Shown piece by piece: positions 1-62,330 of a DNA stretch of 64,000 nucleotides. The notes under the pieces were generated by a model. It was given only the letters and a program-made list of their open reading frames with translations. It was not told the origin of the DNA and searched no databases. A program made the translations under genes and the position numbers. Every line of letters begins with the position of its first letter. Within the stretch, counting starts at the first letter, position 1. Origin of the DNA: Tetmemena sp. SeJ-2015 (Eukaryota; Ciliophora; Spirotrichea; Sporadotrichida; Oxytrichidae); the NCBI GenBank assembly GCA_027382625.1, contig JAJKFJ010022473.1, forward strand, positions 100,905-164,904. Reading direction: 5' to 3'.

Positions 1-120
1 GCTCAATATTCAGATTATTTAACTAGTTGCAAATTTTAATTATCTTACTCTCGTATAAAATTACTCATAAAGTTTAAAGCAATCTAAGAAGCTTCATTTC
101 CAAAAACTACTCAGATTGAT

Positions 121-1035
121 ATGCCTGAAAATCGAAAACTATATTCAAAAAAGTTGGGCCCTCGAACTTGTGTGGCAGCTTTCTTCAAGGACTCAGAATA
201 TTTGCTTGGAAAGAATGACTATCGATAAGCTTCCTCTTAGGATCTATTATGAGGCTCCCTGATTACTATTGTGTATAGTCATTACCAATTCTTGAACGAG
301 ATAGAGAAACTGCCTTAGTGCAATACCTATGATGGCTAGGCAGAAAGTCTCAGATAGTCACACTGCTGATGGAGCTTCCACACTCTTCACACATCCAGAA
401 ATACTTCAAAGATTACCTGGGTATATCTCAAGCCTTCCCAAATATCAAAGCTGTGCACAAAGTTTCAGACTTCACATTATTCTTAAGAATGCAACGTCGA
501 TTTAAATAAAGCTTGTCGAACCCATAGCAAGAGCTGCGCCTACTTGAGTCTGCTTGTGCGATCATCCCTCATAGTGATTATGCTGCACCTCATACTCCTC
601 GAGCTATCAGGTAATGTTCAGAATCATTATTGGTAATTCCTTTTCTCTTAACCCCTATTTGTATTATCTTTAAAGGCAAGGCGAAATGAATTCAAAGTTG
701 ATGAGCACCTAAAACCAGAAGATCCCCGAAAAGTAATTCAAGCTCGTTTGCGATCTTCCACCCAAACCAAATCCGTGAGTTGCACCAATCAACAAGTACA
801 ATAATTCAAAAAGCAATTGAATTAATAGCGGCGATATAATATCCGGCAGCTAAACATATTCTTGAACTTCTCGTTCTAGCTTATCATTGAAAATGAGTCT
901 TCAAGTAAGGGCTCCAAGTAGTTAGCGAAATATTTAGCAAGGCCACGACATCGGCACTCTTCTCAAAATCAATTCATCAAGAGGCCACCAAGACCGAATA
1001 AAGCATTCACAGACACGGATTCTTTCACTCTATGA
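121..1035 (+). pseudogene. Uncharacterised gene in left palindrome arm, frame broken
   Basis: A protein-like frame starts at ATG 121 (MPENRKLYSK) and runs through the arm with TAA/TAG as glutamine, ending at TGA 1033-1035. To stay in frame it needs the one-base-shorter version seen in the right arm near 238, a further shift near 260, and passage through an in-frame TGA at 330-332 (between QYL and WLGRK). A probable intron begins GTAATG near 612 and ends TTTAAAG near 675. The later part is basic (LRMQRRF, then RRNEFKVDEHLK). No domain is recognised. It may be a real gene with sequence errors or a decayed copy. Confidence 0.4.
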
Positions 1036-1949
1036 ACTTGATTAGCATATCCACTCTGAAAAATGGGATAGACTTACGTTTGCTGATGCAGCGATGAAAG
1101 CAGAATGAGCAGCAATCCTCAGCGAATATATCCTTAAGCGTAAAGTGGAACATCCAGCATCATTAAAATAATAATAATTATATCCTTATAAACTTAAAAA
1201 TATTCAACTCCTCACCGTTTTTATTAATCCATTAATTATTGAGGTGCTTCACTCCTCATTCCATCTTAATTAATATAACTGTAAATTCCCTTTATAAATT
1301 TTAAAAATGGAGGTGACTCTTACTGGCTCTTCAGCTCTGGTAGTGCAGATTGTGTCTTGGATTCTACCTCAACCTCTTCTCGAGGCTAGGTGCTAGTTGC
1401 TTATGAATAATAGAAGAACTTAATAAGTTGGAAGAAATGAAATTGCAAGATAAACAAACAATAGCCCAGAAGTCTACAAGGATCTCATCTACGTAGAAAT
1501 AATGCAGGTACAAACTTAAAACTCTGTTCTTCAGCTACTAATTTCAAAAAGATATGATGTCATACAAGATTAGTCAATTCATAAGCAACTAGCACCTAGC
1601 CTCGAGAAGAGGTTGAGGTAGAATCCAAGACACAATCTGCACTACCAGAGCTGAAGAGCCAGTAAGAGTCACCTCCATTTTTAAAATTTATAAAGGGAAT
1701 TTACAGTTATATTAATTAAGATGGAATGAGGAGTGAAGCACCTCAATAATTAATGGATTAATAAAAACGGTGAGGAGTTGAATATTTTTAAGTTTATAAG
1801 GATATAATTATTATTATTTTAATGATGCTGGATGTTCCACTTTACGCTTAAGGATATATTCGCTGAGGATTGCTGCTCATTCTGCTTTCATCGCTGCATC
1901 AGCAAACGTAAGTCTATCCCATTTTTCAGAGTGGATATGCTAATCAAGT

Positions 1950-2863
1950 TCATAGAGTGAAAGAATCCGTGTCTGTGAATGCTTTATTCGGTCTTGGTGG
2001 CCTCTTGATGAATTGATTTTGAGAAGAGTGCCGATGTCGTGGCCTTGCTAAATATTTCGCTAACTACTTGGAGCCCTTACTTGAAGACTCATTTTCAATG
2101 ATAAGCTAGAACGAGAAGTTCAAGAATATGTTTAGCTGCCGGATATTATATCGCCGCTATTAATTCAATTGCTTTTTGAATTATTGTACTTGTTGATTGG
2201 TGCAACTCACGGATTTGGTTTGGGTGGAAGATCGCAAACGAGCTTGAATTACTTTTCGGGGATCTTCTGGTTTTAGGTGCTCATCAACTTTGAATTCATT
2301 TCGCCTTGCCTTTAAAGATAATACAAATAGGGGTTAAGAGAAAAGGAATTACCAATAATGATTCTGAACATTACCTGATAGCTCGAGGAGTATGAGGTGC
2401 AGCATAATCACTATGAGGGATGATCGCACAAGCAGACTCAAGTAGGCGCAGCTCTTGCTATGGGTTCGACAAGCTTTATTTAAATCGACGTTGCATTCTT
2501 AAGAATAATGTGAAGTCTGAAACTTTGTGCACAGCTTTGATATTTGGGAAGGCTTGAGATATACCCAGGTAATCTTTGAAGTATTTCTGGATGTGTGAAG
2601 AGTGTGGAAGCTCCATCAGCAGTGTGACTATCTGAGACTTTCTGCCTAGCCATCATAGGTATTGCACTAAGGCAGTTTCTCTATCTCGTTCAAGAATTGG
2701 TAATGACTATACACAATAGTAATCAGGGAGCCTCATAATAGATCCTAGAGGAAGCTTATCGATAGTCATTCTTTCCAAGCAAATATTCTGAGTCCTTGAA
2801 GAAAGCTGCCACACAAGTTCGAGGGCCCAACTTTTTTGAATATAGTTTTCGATTTTCAGGCAT
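1950..2863 (-). pseudogene. Mirror copy of the same gene in right palindrome arm
   Basis: This is the reverse-complement copy of the gene at 121-1035, carried by the right arm. It differs in the sites checked by a single base, and here the frame across DYRQASS continues one step further (RIYYEAP) than in the left arm. If the palindrome is real, the locus carries two divergent copies whose 5' ends point outward from the spacer. If it is an artefact, only one of the two exists. Confidence 0.35.
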
Positions 2864-2983
2864 ATCAATCTGAGTAGTTTTTGGAAATGAAGCTTCTTAG
2901 ATTGCTTTAAACTTTATGAGTAATTTTATACGAGAGTAAGATAATTAAAATTTGCAACTAGTTAAATAATCTGAATATTGAGC

Positions 2984-3699
2984 ATGCTACTAATTATTGA
3001 GAAGTATTTTATTAAAAATTTGCAAATTCAATGCTAATTTCTTAATATTTCAGAGAATCAATTGGATTATAGAATAATTTATTCTCTACTGGTATGAGCA
3101 TCAAATGATGTGATTCTTATTCTCTTCAGATAAAATCTCTGAAAAAGGCGAGAAAACGAAATTTATAATAAATTCTAATTATATCCAATAATTTCATTTA
3201 GATAAGCAGATTTAAATTAATTCTCTTCTATAATGATTAAGACACAAATAAAAATTAGGAAAAATAATATCAAAGCAGTTGCTAAGACTAGTATATTCAA
3301 AGCAAGCAGTACTACTACTTATATCATCTTTTATATAATGATTAAAGATCTAGTCAATACTATGAATCGACAAGTCATATCAAAGTATGATCATGGGTTT
3401 GGATACTAAATACAAGTGTTTGTATTAAATATGGTAGCAATTTGAGAATGTAGTAGAGAGATCAGAATTAGCATGGTTGTGTCCACACTCACCGCAACTC
3501 TTGGTCACGGTTCAGAACAGGTCTGTTGTTATCATCATTATCTCTAAACTACTTCCTCAAAAGCTCATGCATTCACCTGCGCTTCTCAAAATGCTCAATG
3601 CCTAAGTTAGCATGTCTGCATCTTGAGATGCGGCCATGAGTGCGTGAGTGGTTGAGTATATAGCTCGTATTAAGTATTAATTTTTAAATTAATTATAAT
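2984..3699. other. AT-rich spacer with a possible small minus-strand ORF
   Basis: Most of this stretch is AT-rich with no clear gene. A minus-strand reading frame of about 55 codons ends at TGA 3489-3491 (…VLNRDQELR). It may be joined by a 21-nt GTGAAT…GAG intron to an upstream part (HGRISRCRHANLG) near 3600-3660. It has no recognised start or family and may be chance. Confidence 0.3.
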
Positions 3700-33659: not shown

Positions 33660-34510
33660 CAAAAGGATTTGATCAAACTATAGCTGGAAGCTTAATAGAA
33701 AATAGAATTAAATTAGGATTTAAATTAAAATGGAAAGTTATCTTAGCACTTTAATTGTGCCCAATTTAAATAATTCTTCAACCATTCGAAAGAGCATGAA
33801 ATTCTAAGAATTTTTTATCGATGCAATTTTTGTGTGGGAGTGCTTAGTCAAGAGTTATAAGCGATACAATTTCTGCTGAAACTGATATTTGGTTTTGAGA
33901 GCACTGCGCTAGCCAAATCTCTCAGCAGAGATAAGCTAAAAGAATCTCCAAGAATGAAATAGTCGTAGAATATAGCTGAGAATTTAATGAAAAATCAAAT
34001 TAATTAATAAAAGTGATTAAAATGGATTTAAATCGCGACAGTTGAAGTGTCTCAGAATCGAGCAATAATTAGACCATTCGATTCAGCATAGAATTCTAAG
34101 AACTTTTCATCCTTGCAACTTTTGTGTGGGAACGCTCTGTCAAGAGTTATAAGCCACACAAGTTATTCTGAGTTCGATATTGAAGAATTTGAAGAGTGCT
34201 CACTTCATATCTCCCTGGTGAGAGGTGCTGAGGCGATGATTAAAGAAGAAACTCATATTAATTTTTGATAAGCTATCGAACAAGCTACAGATCGAGGGGT
34301 GAATCTGCGATTTCAACTGCCACCATTTTGCAACTCCTCATTTATTATTTTAATCAATCACCGATTTTAATTAAATTCTATACTATAATACAAGCTATCG
34401 AGCAAGCTGCAGGTTGAGAGGTGAATCTCACAATTTAACTGACAAATTTTTACAGATTTCTCCTTATTATGTTAAACAATTTCCGATTTTAATTAAATTT
34501 TATATTATAA
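33660..34510. repeat. Dispersed repeat, two tandem diverged copies plus a partial one
   Basis: Two units share an ordered block: a TTCTAAGAA motif, then TGCAA.TTTTGTGTGGGA, then GTCAAGAGTTATAAGC (units at about 33690-33960 and 34010-34385). The 3' part of the second unit (AAGCTATCGA.CAAGCT, GAGGTGAATCT, ATTTTAATTAAATT) is repeated again at 34386-34510. Another copy is at 44700-45075. Copies diverge by many substitutions, and no coding frame is conserved among them. They may be a non-autonomous mobile element or an RNA-gene family. Confidence 0.7.
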
Positions 34511-34679
34511 TGGCTTTTTAAATTAAATTATTTATCTCATTAACAAAATATATTTTTCTTTTTTCACTTGCTATTAATTTACTTATTTAAAATTCCTGTG
34601 AGAATTAAATTATCTCTTTATATAAAAGTTTTTCTTTTTTACCTTAAATAATTATAGCTTGCTAAATACTATTTTATTT

Positions 34680-44640: not shown

Positions 44641-44699
44641 TTCAAATGCGTTTGAATGTAGGTTACAAGTGAACTATAGATGAGAATGAACTGAAAAAT

Positions 44700-45075
44700 A
44701 AAATTAATTTTCTATTTAAATAAAAATAAGTTAAATCAGCTGCAGTTGAAGTGTATCCAATTTAAATAATTATTAGCACATTTGACATATCATCAAATTA
44801 TAATGACTTTATATTATTGCAACTTTGTTTTGGGGTGTTCAGAGTTTTAAGCGACAAATATCAATATTGAATATGAAGGAGAGTATATCTCACTACTGAG
44901 AGGTGCTGTGAAGTTTATTAAAGTAGAAACTCCTATTAAAGTTTTATAGTCTATCAAACATGCTACATATGGATGGAGGGAGGGTGTAAATCTTCAAATT
45001 TGACTGCCACCATGCTTCATCTACCGACTTATTATTTTAATAAATCATAAATTTTAATTAAATTCTATTCTATAT
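44700..45075. repeat. Third locus of the dispersed repeat
   Basis: It shares with the 33.66-34.51 kb repeats the same order of blocks: GTTGAAGTGT, then TTGCAACTTTG with the GTTATAAGC-like AGAGTTTTAAGCGACA, GAGAGGTGCTG, AGAAACTC.TATTAA, GACTGCCACCAT and ATTTTAATTAAATTCTAT. Divergence is substantial but the order is unchanged, so this is one family spread over at least two loci 10 kb apart. Confidence 0.65.
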
Positions 45076-55959: not shown

Positions 55960-57155
55960 CCGTTTCCACTTAGCCATTTTAAGAAGCATAACGAAATATT
56001 AATTTGACTCTCTTTCCGTCCATCCATTGGCCTTTTTTAGTTTCTCCTTTGCTCGTGGTGTAGTAACCATAACCATGTTATTTTCCGTTAAGCCAGGTTC
56101 CCTCATAGCGCCTTCCATCGGGCCAAATGAATATGCCTTCACCTTATTATAAATGGTCCACAACATACTATTCACTTTTTAACCTTGCTTTTTGTCATCG
56201 AAGTACTCTCCATCATACTTTCTTCCATCAGCCCAAGTGAAAACACCTCGTCCGTGCATTTTATTGTTGACCCACTAGCCGTTGTATTGGCGATTATCTG
56301 CCCACGTGTACACTCCCATTCCCTTGAATATTGTTATCAACAAACTGCCCTTGATAGGTGGAGCCGTCAGCCCAGGAGAATTTACCGTATCCATCTTTCT
56401 TCCCTTCCTTGTACTCTCCTTCATAACAAGCTCCATCGGGCCACGTTTCTTTACCATGGCCATGCTGCTTGTCTTCCTTCCAATAGCCCTCGTACTAAGC
56501 TCCATCCGTGTGATAATATCTGCCGAATCCGTGCGCCTTATCGTCTTTCCATTCTCCTTCATACACATCCCCATCTGCGTGGATTAATCTTCCACGTCCG
56601 TTGGCTTTATCATTTCTCCAGTATCCTTCATAGAGAGAGCCATCAGCCCAAACTTACTTGCCTTGGCCGTCTCTCATATTTCTCTGAAGGTCCCATTCTC
56701 CTTCATAGCGAGCTCCATTTTCGAGGGTGGTGAGAGGTTGGAATTCACGGTGAACCTTGTCTTGATACTTTGGAGCTGGTTCGTAGTTGAATGCTCCCAA
56801 CTTATAGAGTATGTTCTGAACAATTTAATAGACAAATAAGTTTATAATTGGGTTGTCATAGTTAGGCACTAGCATATCAGACATGCCTCTTCTGAGCATG
56901 GGATTCATTGAAAATCCATATTGCTGTCTTACTCTATTTCTAGCTAAGGAGCCTCTAAAAATATTTCTTAATTTAATTAAAGCCTCTAATGAAGGACTGA
57001 AGCTTGATGATGAGTTTAATAAGTTGCTTCTTGTCTTTAATGTTTGATTGGGCAAGTAGTTATTACTTTAATAAGATTATAATTAAAAAATGAGTTTAAT
57101 TATAATTAATTTGATAATTAACCATATCTCCATGCCTGGAGCCTCCGTAAGTCAT
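55960..57155 (-). CDS. MORN-repeat protein
   Basis: The start is ATG 57155 ([11 protein letters not shown]), with an intron or indel before [11 protein letters not shown]. After an ~80-residue N-terminal region come about eight MORN motifs: [117 protein letters not shown] and [20 protein letters not shown] proteins act at membranes and in cytoskeletal or ciliary assemblies. Two single-base shifts are needed, near 56326 (GGGAA) and near 56180 (A5 run). The opposite strand shows a long open frame over the repeats, but it is a shadow. The C-terminus is approximate. Confidence 0.8.
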
Positions 57156-57479
57156 GTTAATTTCCTTATCCTTGTTATTTGGGTAAAATTAATAAAAATT
57201 AAACTTTCGTAATTTAAATGAAAAAGTTTAGATAGAAAGAGTAATTACATCAAGCTATTTAGCTTTATTTTTATAAGCAATAGTATCTTATTTTTAAATG
57301 ATTGGACTTGTTAAAATGCATTTAGCCTTTTTTTACTTTTCTCTAATTGATATTATTTTCATAAACATTGAAACCCAAATTTGTATTGCCAATATTTTAG
57401 TAAAATAATATTAAATATTGTTATTTTCATTGTGAAAATAACAATATGGATTTTAACTTTATAGCTCAGCATTATAAGG

Positions 57480-59330
57480 AACTAAATAAGAGACTAAGTT
57501 CATAATGTTGAAAGCAGATAGTTTAATTTTTTAAAAAAATAAATGGAGCTTGCTTGCATATTGATACTTTGGGGGGGGGCCTTTCCGAATTTTTCTTAAA
57601 AAAAAAATAATTTCCTAAAATTAAAAAAAAAATTATTAGCCAAAAAAACAAAAAAAAAATGCCCTTTTATATTCAAATTTTAAGATTTTGGAAAAAAAAA
57701 AGAAAATTTTGAAAAAAAATTAAATTTTAAAGCATAAAATTTTTCAATTTCCTTTTTAGTTTAAGATTTTTAAATTTTAAAAAAATAAATCCCCAAAAAT
57801 TTTTTTTATGTTTTGTTTTAGGTATAGAATTAATCTCTTCTTACTAGAAGCTCCTAAAAATAGTTAATTTTAAAAATTTATATTTAAATTAAATTTAATT
57901 TATTTCAAACATTTTCTTTCTCAATATAAAATGAAAAATAAAGAAGCTTTTTTTTTTTTAAATTTTTCTTTCAAATTTTTTTAAAAAAAAATTTAATTAT
58001 TTATTTTTTATTTTAAAGTTATTGTAAGAAAATTTTAAAAAAAATGGTTTAAAAACCAAAAAATAAAATTTTTTGGATAATTAAAAATTTTTTTTTAATT
58101 TTTTGCAGAAAAAAGGTTTTCTCCCAAAGCTGGGGTTTAAAAATAAAAATTTTCAATCCCATGGCAAAATAATTTTAAAATTACTCTTTAAAAAAAATTA
58201 GTAAAATTAAAATTTTTGAATTCCTTAAAATTTCCCCAAAAAATTTTAAAAGCTTTTGGTGATTTTGGGAGATTTATTTTTAAAATTTTTAAAAAAAAAT
58301 TGGGGTTAGAAAAGGCCCCCCCCAAAACTTTTTTCCCCGGAAAAAATTTAAAAATCCTTTAAAAAAAAAATAATTTTTGTTTTTTCCCCCCAAAAAAAAA
58401 AAAAATAATTAAAATCGACCAAAGAAATCAAAAAAAAAAATTTACTTTTATATTCAAGACTTTAAGGGTTTCAAAAAAAATTTTAAAATTTTAAAGGAAA
58501 GTAAAACCGGGTTTTAATTAAAAATTTTAAAATTGGCTTAAATTTTTCAACTTCATTTTAGTTTTAAATATATTCACTTCAATTTAAATTCTCAAATAAG
58601 CCCACAGATTTGGTATTTATGAAAAGTATGATTTTGGGGGGTTTTGTTTAAGCCTTTCCTAATTTAAACCGAAAATTTTTAAAATTTAATATTTAATTTT
58701 TTAGAATCTAAATAACAAAAAATAAAAATACAAATTTTAAAAAGGAATTTTATAAATAATTTTTAAAAAAAAAAGCAAAAATAAGTGATGAAAAATTTTT
58801 AAAATTTTTAAAATTTTACAAAAAAATAAAGAAATTTTTTTTAAACTTGGGAAAGGGGTTTTTAAAAAAAATTTAAAAGTCAAATTATAAATTTTTTTTC
58901 CCCTCTTAAAAAATTTTAATCCTGTTTCATCCCAAAACTCAGGCTGCTACAAACAATTTCCTCAATAAAAACTGCCATGGAAAATCAATAAAGCACTTCA
59001 TCTGTTAGCCGCTTTAGTCAAAAATTCTTCCTTTAACCTCCCTTTAAATTTTAATAAATTCAAAATTTATTAGGAAGGTTAAATTTATAAAACTTTTTAT
59101 AAATAAATTTTTAAAATTTTTTTTTAAAATTTTAATTTAAATTAAAATTGCAATTTTAAAACTTTTTTTAAAATAGTTAACCAATAAATGCATCTATCTG
59201 TTTCTTCTCCCCAGTTACACTGTCTTAGATTAATTAATAACTTGTTAAATTCATCCCCCCCTCTAGAGCACATTAATTAATTTATTGGTTTTGCCTCTAA
59301 AAGGTGGGATTCAATACAAATGTTTACTTT
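57480..59330. other. Homopolymer-stretched low-complexity region
   Basis: About 1.8 kb in which nearly every base is part of a run: A and T runs of 5-13, plus runs of C and G of 5-9 (for example near 57571, 58314, 58385). No gene, repeat unit or RNA can be read. The texture differs abruptly from the flanks and looks like low-quality consensus with stretched homopolymers. A true AT-rich slippage-prone spacer is the alternative. Confidence 0.6.
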
Positions 59331-59362
59331 CATTTTACAATGACCTAAAGTAGAAACCACAG

Positions 59363-62330
59363 ATGATGAACTGGAGGCAGATACTGGAAAAGAAACCTCC
59401 AAGAATTGGATCTTCAAGCTTAGGGGCTTTCAACCCTTCATTTTAGCAATAGAATATTGAATTACAAACTCTTCAGTAACTTTTGCAAATTGACTCAAAT
59501 TAAAAGCACCACAGAGATAGAGCAAATACTCTGGACTCGCAAAACCAAGATCATGAATATCATAAACAGGCTTCTCATGATATAAAAGCATTCATCGTAT
59601 TTTTTAAGCCTTGATTTAAGATGAGTAGATGATGAATTTGTTTCAGACTCCGATGCGGCCTCACAGACTGAACAATGTTGCAATACAACAATAGCAGTAG
59701 TAACCCATAAGTAGCTAGAACACTGTTATAAATAGTTCAAGACAAATAGCTTAAAGTGTCAGAAGCAGCACTGAGAGGCTGAGAGTGGAAAACAGAGATT
59801 AAATTCCTTCTCCTGAAGAACCTGGCTTCACACCCTCCAATAATAGCAGTGTCATCAGGAGTTCTGACTTTAAGTAAACTATCATCTAGAGAAACCCTTC
59901 CCAAGTCTAATCAATTGATATGTTTGGTGAATATGTTAATCATTAAGATACAAGAATACCAAGAAGCATAAGAGATAATCTAGTTAAACCAATGATAAGA
60001 GCGAGAGCGAATCCGCAGACAGAACTGTAGAACTTCCTCAAAACTACTAAATTGTTAAATTAGTATTGTAGATATAGTGAGGATTTTCAAAATTTTAAAT
60101 TAATCCAGTGGCTGTTGACAGACGTTAGAGGAGAGCAGGCTGGGTTTCCTGATGTAGTTGGCAGGTTTCGTGGCAGTTTGAAATGCATGTGTCTATTCTA
60201 GGTGTGATTCAATTGGAAATAGGAATTAATTAAAAGTACGCCTTAATGAAATAGGGTTAAATGAGTTTGGCAACAAATAGGCCTGGAATATTGGAATACT
60301 GGAATATTGGAATACTGGAATACTGGAATATTCCAGCAAAGGATCAGGACTACCAGAGGAGTGTCGGGAGGGGGTTAGTGCGGGGGGCTTCATTATTAGG
60401 GCGTAAAAATATTCCAATAGTCCAACTATCTCGGCGAGTGAAGTGAGATTTATTAATTAGGGTGCGAATACTTAGGACTTATAAAACCTAACCATCACAA
60501 CCTATCCTGCTTGTTCCAGTCTTCTTACCAGGCTCTGCCATTGGAAGTCTCCCTTGTCGATGTAGGCCATGTCTTAAGTGCTAGATCTATGATCTCCTCT
60601 TAATCTTTTCAGAGTGCAGGCCGATCCTTCCCTCTCAGTTCAACCTCTCCTCAAAGTGCATGTCTAGTTGGGCTGTAATCATCTGGCAAGCCTTCAGATT
60701 ACAGTTCTCATCTCTCCGCATCTCGACGAATCGGACCCTGGTCCATCAAGGCGCCTCTATAGAACTCAATTAGTTTAGCTTTTAGTTGGTGCGGCCCAAT
60801 GAGCTCTATTTTAGAAGAATGACCATGTAGAGCGATCCACCCCTTGCAGTCTGACAGATGGGGGCCATGCTACCTCTGGAAGCACGTGTGGTCATTGACG
60901 CCTAGAGAGCGGTAGCTTGCTCGCCGGGAGAGCAGCGTTGAGAGCCAAGGAACATGCCTTCTTCTTATGGTAGGACTCAGGATCTCTCTTCTTAGAGCTG
61001 GAGCCGTTCATAGGTGGGATTGCGAGAGAGAATGCCGCGACTCTTTTAAGAATGCCATAAATATTTTAACTTAAACTAAGTATTCGACCCTAATTAAAAA
61101 TCTCAACTTCACTCGCCGAAAATAGTTGGATATTATTGAATATTTTTACGACCTTAATAATGAAGCCCCCCGCACTAACCCCTCCCGACACGCTCTGGTA
61201 GTCTGACTTTGCTGGAATATTCCAATATCCATATTCCAAATTCCAGTATGTCCAATATTCCAGGCCTATTATGTTGCCAAACTCATTTTAAACCTATTTC
61301 ATTAAGGGCGACTTTTAATTAATTCCTATTTCCAATTGAATCACACCTAGAATAGAACACAGCATTTCAAACTGCCACGAAACCTGCCAACTACATCAGG
61401 AAACCCAGCCTGCTCTCCTCTAACGCTGTCAACAGCCATGGATTAATTTAAAATTTTGAAAATCCTCACTATATCTACAATATTCTATTCTTCTAAATTG
61501 TTAAGCATGATGAAGAATCAAAAACAAACAAGCCAGCTGAGATCAAAGATGAGAGTGTCTAAAAATAAGACTTAACTCTTTAAGAAGAAGATAGACATAA
61601 CAATATTTACAAATGATCTCTTATTTGAGTTTTTTAGATTGTGATTTATTGGAAGTTGATGAGACAAATGCGTTCCACTAATAAATAAACAAAAGAAGAT
61701 AGACTTTGGAGGCAAGATTGACTTACCCTCAATAAGACGATTTTTTTATTTATTCCGAGAACTAATGTGACGAGACAAGTTAATCAGGTCAGTCATCTCT
61801 GTAAAGCACTTTCATTCGATCCTTTCATCAGCATTTCCAGCTGAATTCTATCTCTCAACTTTAATTAAAGACTAGTTAAGCATTCAAAGCTCTAAATAAT
61901 CTAAATTAGGAAAGTCAAAAGAATAAAATCAATTTAGTAAAGTAGAAAATTCAATCTTCCAGCGATCAAACTTTAATTTATTTATTGAATCAGTTAGTTT
62001 ACATTTCATTTACTTTAATACCCGAATAGAGAAATAGAGATTCAGAAGAAACTATAAAAGACCTCATGATAAACAAGTGCATGAGTGTTGACGAATAAGT
62101 AAGCCTCCTAGAATTCAAGAAACCTTTCCTACTTGTGCATATTTTCATTTTTACTAAACAAAGAGTATGAAGAAGCAATTCCTCAGTCTTTAATCGAATA
62201 GAACTCCTCCAAGCATCATAATCCAAGCATATTGTTTCAGAAAAAGTTACTGATAACTTTGAACGAGATAATTTATTTTCATTTAATTTTCGACAGGAAA
62301 GTTTCTGAGCCTTAAGTTAACTAGATGCAT
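59363..62330 (+). CDS. Polar coiled-coil-like protein split by an inserted element
   Basis: The start is ATG 59363 (MMNWRQILEKKPPRIGSSSL). Exons up to 60050 encode Gln/Asn/Ser-rich sequence (QQNIELQTLQQLLQIDSNQK; EEPGFTPSNNSSVIRSSDF; PQTELQNFLKTTKLL). At 60047-61492 an inverted-repeat element interrupts the gene. Coding resumes in the same frame right after it: TKLLSMMKNQKQTSQLRSK, then Q-rich helices (RSFHQHFQLNSISQLQLKTS; RDSEETIKDLMINKCMSVD). One intron or indel near 59605 and one frame change near 61637 are unresolved; the 3' end is approximate. Without removal of the element, translation would meet TGA within it. No family is recognised. Confidence 0.55.
60047..61492. mobile_element. Terminal-inverted-repeat element / candidate internal eliminated sequence
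   Basis: The left ~410 bp (about 60064-60475) is an imperfect reverse complement of the right ~410 bp (about 61071-61482). A 12-bp direct repeat, CTAAATTGTTAA, lies at 60047-60058 and again at 61493-61504. Each arm holds a small array of GGAATATT/GGAATACT units (left: 60287-60345). The central ~590 bp (60480-61070) is unique and clearly more G+C-rich than the rest of the window, with no convincing transposase frame. The boundaries given keep one repeat copy inside. Long inverted repeats without an obvious transposase suggest a fold-back or MITE-like element. Confidence 0.8.

Follow-up and report, generated by a model that had tools for sequence, protein, structure and literature searches.

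The inverted-repeat element that interrupts a probable gene in the window (the whole 64,000-nt stretch analysed, G000:C3147:100905-164904, within a 146-Mb assembly of 5,213 contigs from which all copies mentioned below also come) appears, from comparison with its relatives, to be a non-autonomous, MITE-like derivative of a larger element, having kept the arms and carrying a shared internal deletion of the autonomous relative. The notable part is this parent family, which encodes a putative SF3 helicase; the 12-bp direct repeat around the insert is not the element's own signature. For the reading as a whole, i.e. a non-autonomous copy of an initiator-type ciliate element that entered by break repair and is probably removed from the soma, we see about an even chance, and somatic excision of the insert, taken on its own, is plausible and slightly favoured.

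The insertion site and the boundaries of the element

Two copies of CTAAATTGTTAA, identical at 12/12 positions and 1446 bp apart from start to start, enclose an insert of ~1.42 kb (60059-61492). Inside it, inverted arms of ~410 bp each, 92 % alike, lie around a 600-bp core (Table 1). An exact 12-bp repeat flanking the element had been claimed in the preliminary description, and it stood up to all three comparisons. Exact repeats of at least 12 bp between two 25-nt flanks occurred in 7 of 200,000 composition-matched shuffles, 12-bp or longer repeats at the same spacing were found at 3 of 55,400 window positions (3100-58500), and no mismatched pair among 462 formed between the 25-nt flanks of the 22 copies equalled the window repeat. 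With 22 copies taken into account, chance remains an insufficient explanation of the repeat. The repeat does not mark the end of the element, however, as the arms start 5 bp (left) and 10 bp (right) further in, at TATT. This motif is present at 38 of 44 ends, the boundary having been set partly at it, and the TA is nearly constant at both tips; with the inverted-repeat alignment alone, the left start falls 0-2 nt from TATT in 15 of 22 cases.

Table 1. Features of the insertion site and of the surrounding probable gene (window positions)
Feature	Position	Strand	Basis
Probable upstream exon	59306..59596	+	codon score
Probable 50-nt intron, GTATTT...TTTCAG	59597..59646	+	removal joins two coding-like frames
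Probable exon broken by the element	59647..60058	+	codon score
Direct repeat, left copy, CTAAATTGTTAA	60047..60058	+	in left coding-like frame; sequence
5-bp spacer, direct repeat to left arm	60059..60063	.	sequence; arm alignment and tip comparison
Left inverted arm (ITR), tip TATTGTAG	60064..60475	+	inverted-repeat alignment
Iteron-like tandem repeats of 8 bp, (TGGAATAY)n, within the left arm at 220 bp from its tip	60284..60330	+	
Core: 5′ and 3′ remnants of helicase gene joined by internal deletion	60476..61075	-	tblastn, copy alignment
Right inverted arm, rich in indels, probably insufficiently polished	61076..61482	-	
10-bp spacer, right arm to direct repeat	61483..61492	.	sequence
Direct repeat, right copy	61493..61504	+	sequence
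Possible gene continuation	61505..62170	+	frame after element ambiguous, then weak coding signal

The two arms of the window copy differ by 6 substitutions versus 23 gap events. Compared to the copy on contig C3393, the right arm shows 25-27 indel events (15-16 deletions, 9-12 insertions) and the left arm 2-4 (1-2 deletions, 1-2 insertions), with a similar number of substitutions in both (10-13). The right arm is probably poorly polished long-read sequence, and because of this the exact interior length, and with it 1446 = 3 x 482, means little; the join at the 12-bp repeats is independent of interior length. No 8-bp tandem array was detected in the right arm of the window copy. Dating by arm divergence was rejected, because one arm carries most of the differences and these are largely short indels. 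Relative to the other copies, short indels cluster at 60964-61464, mainly in one arm and with few substitutions, and a local sequence error is likely there.

The preliminary description had offered a 12-bp target duplication as one of two readings; taken as a rule of the element, it finds no support in the 21 other copies. Their matched flanks (25 nt) were no better than mismatched ones (permutation p 0.43, or 0.074 once the window copy is included), and the longest flanking repeat reported among them was 8 bp. Since no such repeat flanks these copies, 12 bp is not the usual target duplication. Mutator-like (MULE) elements have long TIRs and an 8-11-bp duplication; we rejected this class, which would need such a duplication in most copies, on the same comparison of flanks. 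Two copies come nearest to the window copy, whose 12-bp repeat has gaps of 5 and 10: C3473 has an 8-bp repeat with gaps of 3 and 1 (0.6 % of mismatched pairs are as good) and C2193 a 7-bp repeat with gaps of 1 and 8 (1.7 %). Compared post hoc, the three copies hint at duplications of variable length accompanied by filler bases.

The parent family

The left arm has at least 41 matches in the genome (40 of 287 candidates scored), the core has 28, and the helicase protein family at least 86 (83 of 491 candidates scored). Long copies measure ~2.2-2.4 kb and contain one ORF of ~450 aa counted from the first Met; in the long copy C2552 the helicase frame is broken in two. Short copies of ~1.4 kb have lost ~0.9 kb internally. 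We aligned 12 of them to C3380, setting aside C2003, C3041 and the C2617 type. One breakpoint, at position 1591 of C3380 (reverse orientation), is the same in 12/12; the other (690-694) is common to eight within 5 bp, and in C1715, C3188, C3653a and C3085 the match to C3380 ends earlier, at 532-653. By its coordinates the deletion takes out Walker A, Walker B and motif C of the helicase.

There is also a second short subfamily of ~1.22 kb (C2617:58152-59373, C2964:177271-178493 and C3569:55662-56884). It has ~190 bp of arm ends in common with the window element, its arms are 99.5-99.7 % identical and it has no 8-bp array. The copies on C296 and C2810 have an identical 25-nt flank on one side, and the far arm of C296 resembles another subgroup, a pattern that could come from recombination, segment duplication or an assembly join.

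All ten aligned members of the protein family keep Walker A GTGK, Walker B ILDE, motif C TSN and, in addition, LDRxAFxxR. Five members were compared with profiles, and each of them matched DUF5906 (best 9.6e-9), Parvo_NS1 (6.5e-4) and RNA_helicase PF00910 (1e-3) from Pfam as well as PHROG 1156 (DNA primase; best 4.2e-10), while PPV_E1_C matched three of the five (best 0.046); the tabled member scores under every curated Pfam cut-off. Motifs found in 10/10 members and profiles, mostly weak ones, in 5/5 identify the predicted protein as an SF3 helicase. Solved structures yielded weak P-loop or primase matches (Lon protease 0.0039, primase 6k9c 0.0055). We found no relatives in the protein database at E 0.001 or 0.01 among the 7,996 and 7,994 top candidates sharing 5-residue words. 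Two peptide patterns searched in IMG/VR gave 47 stretches, none of them confirmed, and the PF00910 profile had no match over the whole genome (70 candidates scored). Seven of the 45 possible pairs were tried for dN/dS. The pair L053/L067 was saturated, and six pairs gave 0.208, 0.355, 0.173, 0.131, 0.117 and 0.137 (0.355 being the closest pair), so the codon comparison argues for purifying selection on the helicase gene. The eight long helicase-bearing copies contain 13 other ORFs of at least 150 aa; ten of these were scanned against Pfam and none matched at E 0.01. No DDE transposase and no coat-like ORF was seen among the ten, and five helicase ORFs likewise had no DDE match.

The arms of helicase-bearing copies are ~350-460 bp long and mostly near-identical. 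Twelve such copies have both arms present, and in eight of them (C3380, C3473, C2193, C2552, C2311, C3265, C1882 and C2296) the arms are 98.7-100 % identical; the four with less similar arms, a point against our best explanation, are C3484 (79 %), C2479 (89 %), C3301 (95 %) and C2856 (87 %, truncated where the contig stops). When substitutions only are counted over the first 345 nt, the arms are at least 98.5 % identical in 18 of 19 copies and 96.0 % in C3301, the 19 excluding C3484, C2479, C2856 and part of the short copies. Matched against the arms of other copies, an arm reaches 76-97 % with its best partner (alignments of at least 150 nt).

An 8-bp tandem array is present in 16 of 21 copies, and the top array always has period 8 (periods 6-12 tried, direct count). 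It starts 199-222 bp from the tip in at least one arm of 15 of these 16 copies and its unit varies by subgroup (TGGAATAY, TTGGAACW, GACTAATS). By their appearance, the arrays may be iterons to which an initiator binds. The five copies lacking an array (C2617, C2964, C3569, C3041 and C3301) count against our best explanation. In 6/6 cases tested, the outermost 140 nt of an arm had no special folding (z -0.58 to 1.78), which disfavours parvovirus-type hairpin ends.

Building on what can be observed directly, namely the copies, their arms and 8-bp arrays, the helicase gene under selection, the shared deletion and the coding-like frame running to the repeat, we propose the following scheme. Full-length members would code for a single protein of replication-initiator type, made up of an N-terminal domain and the SF3 helicase, between iteron-bearing arms with TATT tips. 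The initiator of a full-length relative would bind the iterons and copy the element from its arms, probably by replication, and one arm could correct the other during copying. A copy may have entered the coding exon via a break, the repair of which would have left the 12-bp duplication and a few filler bases. The germline would tolerate such an insertion, probably through its removal from the developing somatic genome, and the 12-bp repeat would then be the somatic junction (pointer).

The probable interrupted gene and competing explanations

Coding potential was scored in bits per codon with a cross-validated model based on 14 window ORFs picked as coding-like (156 true-frame stretches: median 0.10, 10th percentile -0.02; 780 false ones: 95th percentile -0.03). 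The stretch 59638-60057 scores 0.12 in the frame of the preliminary description (training-ORF median 0.10). As described there, the frame runs as far as FLKTTKLL in the left repeat and, after a join that keeps one repeat copy, goes on with TKLLSMMKNQ; the joined frame stays open to a TGA at 61642-61644. With the element in place an in-frame TGA follows, also as described, and it lies at 60205-60207 after 49 residues of read-through. The exact restoration of the frame is a weaker point: the joined frame does stay open, but this happens by chance in 1 of 3 cases and on the right side a second frame is just as coding-like. At 61505-61615 both score as coding, 0.18 for the described frame and 0.25 for the second one. 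Further on (61652-62170) the best of six frames, another one than before, scores -0.05, under the 10th percentile of true exons. Candidate introns lead into it by five pairs from the described frame (e.g. 61555-61594) and by three from the second (e.g. 61555-61637). Since two right-hand frames look coding and introns lead onward from either, the frame argument is not decisive. Of the claim that the element sits inside a gene, the mobile inverted-repeat element with ~20 relatives and the codon signal as far as the left repeat are well founded, but the gene itself is only probable. A search of the assembly turned up no empty site, the left flank being single-copy at the DNA and protein level and the right-hand protein (61652-62167) also single-copy. 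Further upstream, 57150-59180 is a very A/T-rich, low-complexity region of ~2 kb between two probable genes, perhaps a germline-limited spacer.

If the element is a plain insertion that is never excised, the 12-bp repeat would go back to a single duplication during the repair of a break, and the gene would be either truncated (TGA 60205) or dead. The single-copy left flank, the short read-through into a TGA and the weak coding signal right of 61615 are all compatible with this, but coding-like frames lie close to the element on both sides, and such inserts are common in, and removed from, ciliate germline genomes (PMC9942856); we regard plain insertion as possible but doubtful. The element could also have entered a short intron, or act as an intron itself, and be spliced out. 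Genes here do have short introns (50 nt, Table 1), and 48 GT/AG pairs span the element, 18 of them leading to the described right-hand frame and 10 to the second, the latter restored from outside the arm by donors at 60027, 60054 and 60063; the pair 60027 to 61505 would amount to an intron of ~60 nt without the element. However, chance would be expected to yield that many pairs, an intron of 1.4 kb would be very unlike the 50-nt one, the codon score is positive right up to the left repeat and the repeat is left unexplained. Splicing therefore seems quite improbable to us.

Tec/TBE-type and Paramecium IESs are excised at their own TA tips. Should the present element leave in the same style (TA...TA), the 12-bp repeat would be unrelated to its removal. 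The tips described above, with TATT at most ends (boundaries set at the motif) and a nearly constant TA, and the many DDE_3 transposases in the genome would suit such a course, but removal at TA puts an in-frame TGA at most 10 codons from the join and the 12-bp repeat again has no explanation, and we hold excision at the tips to be very improbable. The abundant Tc1/mariner transposases might still move the element in trans, with the helicase as a passenger, and the nearly constant TA at both tips would fit this. We consider this unlikely in view of the lack of Pfam matches in the ten scanned ORFs (of 13), the purifying selection on the helicase and the constant position of the 8-bp arrays in most arms. 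For our preferred reading, in which the insert is removed from the soma, it might be cut out as an IES whose pointer is the 12-bp repeat, since the genome is that of a ciliate and, like germline genomes, rich in Tc1/mariner transposases.

Known mobile elements and genome context

TBE and Tec of spirotrichs are germline elements with TIRs that interrupt genes, are removed in development and encode a Tc1/mariner DDE transposase. The window element likewise has TIRs and interrupts a probable gene in a probable germline genome, but no such transposase was found in the ORFs scanned. This speaks against a Tc1/mariner element or its MITE, five helicase ORFs and 10 of 13 other ORFs of at least 150 aa in eight full-length relatives having no DDE match. 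HUH Rep elements comprise CRESS, Helitron, Replitron and parvovirus. This group was rejected, the HxH (HUH) motif being absent N-terminal to Walker A from all ten initiators, which also counts against our best explanation. As in parvovirus NS1 and papillomavirus E1, the SF3 helicase is C-terminal to another domain and there are weak profile matches, but the tabled member is under curated cut-offs and the arm tips have no special fold.

Transposable elements resembling ssDNA viruses include a geminivirus-like one in Tuber, a parvovirus-like one in the acorn worm and the related PEVE/PIVE of planarians, and the Tuber element has 37-bp TIRs and no obvious TSD (PMC3198968). The ciliate family is similar in having an initiator/helicase instead of or beside a transposase and terminal inverted repeats, and it resembles the Tuber element in lacking a clear target duplication. 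It differs in having neither HxH nor a coat-like ORF (10 of 13 other ORFs), in its 350-460-bp arms with 8-bp arrays, and in that no full-length sequence relative was found. BogoMITE/MITIES of Blepharisma derive from a Pogo/Tigger DDE transposon, have ~30-bp TIRs and a TAA duplication, and are at the same time IESs (PMC9942856). Like the present copies, they are short and non-autonomous, have inverted repeats, stem from a larger element and reside in the germline of a ciliate; the difference is that the parent here encodes an SF3 helicase. A germline study of spirotrichs also exists (PMC10901763). In the open-access literature, searched by titles and abstract openings, no SF3-helicase element in a ciliate is described, and the helicase-carrying family is apparently undescribed so far.

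Few eukaryotic mobile elements rely, to our knowledge, on a replication initiator, and the known ones use an HUH nuclease. We tentatively suggest, with considerable doubt, that the family represents a mobile class in which an SF3 initiator-helicase acts on iterons in long arms, with neither DDE nor HUH, the arms kept identical per copying round, no fixed target duplication and removal from genes in the soma, seen in one ciliate germline. A sizeable family under selection that combines long arms and iteron-like arrays with an SF3 helicase but has no recognisable nuclease or transposase raises the question of what cuts and joins its ends, and it adds a possible non-Tc1/mariner parent for DNA interrupting ciliate germline genes.

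Genetic code table 6 yields long ORFs. A window protein at 11026 matches NDUTT15 (3.6e-5), which we take to be a Tetrahymena complex I subunit, and owing to this match we regard the genome as a ciliate one. The DDE_3 profile (Tc1/mariner) matched all 150 scored candidates, with 921 candidates in a first look, and RVT_1 gave 14 matches from 19 candidates, 13 of them above the cut-off. Given its richness in Tc1/mariner transposases, as is typical of germline genomes, the assembly probably represents the germline genome. Exact C4A4 arrays were found in three contigs and C4A2 arrays in none; with contigs of up to hundreds of kilobases, it does not appear to be a nanochromosome assembly. A search of the window for tRNA and Rfam RNAs returned none. 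Window 1-3049, together with 65 bp left of the window, forms a near-perfect palindrome with arms of ~1,473 bp, 99.8 % identical, and a 168-bp spacer, which could be real or a chimera of amplification or assembly. Diverged repeats, ~69-81 % alike and both tandem and dispersed, are located at 33699-34511 and 44675-45074.
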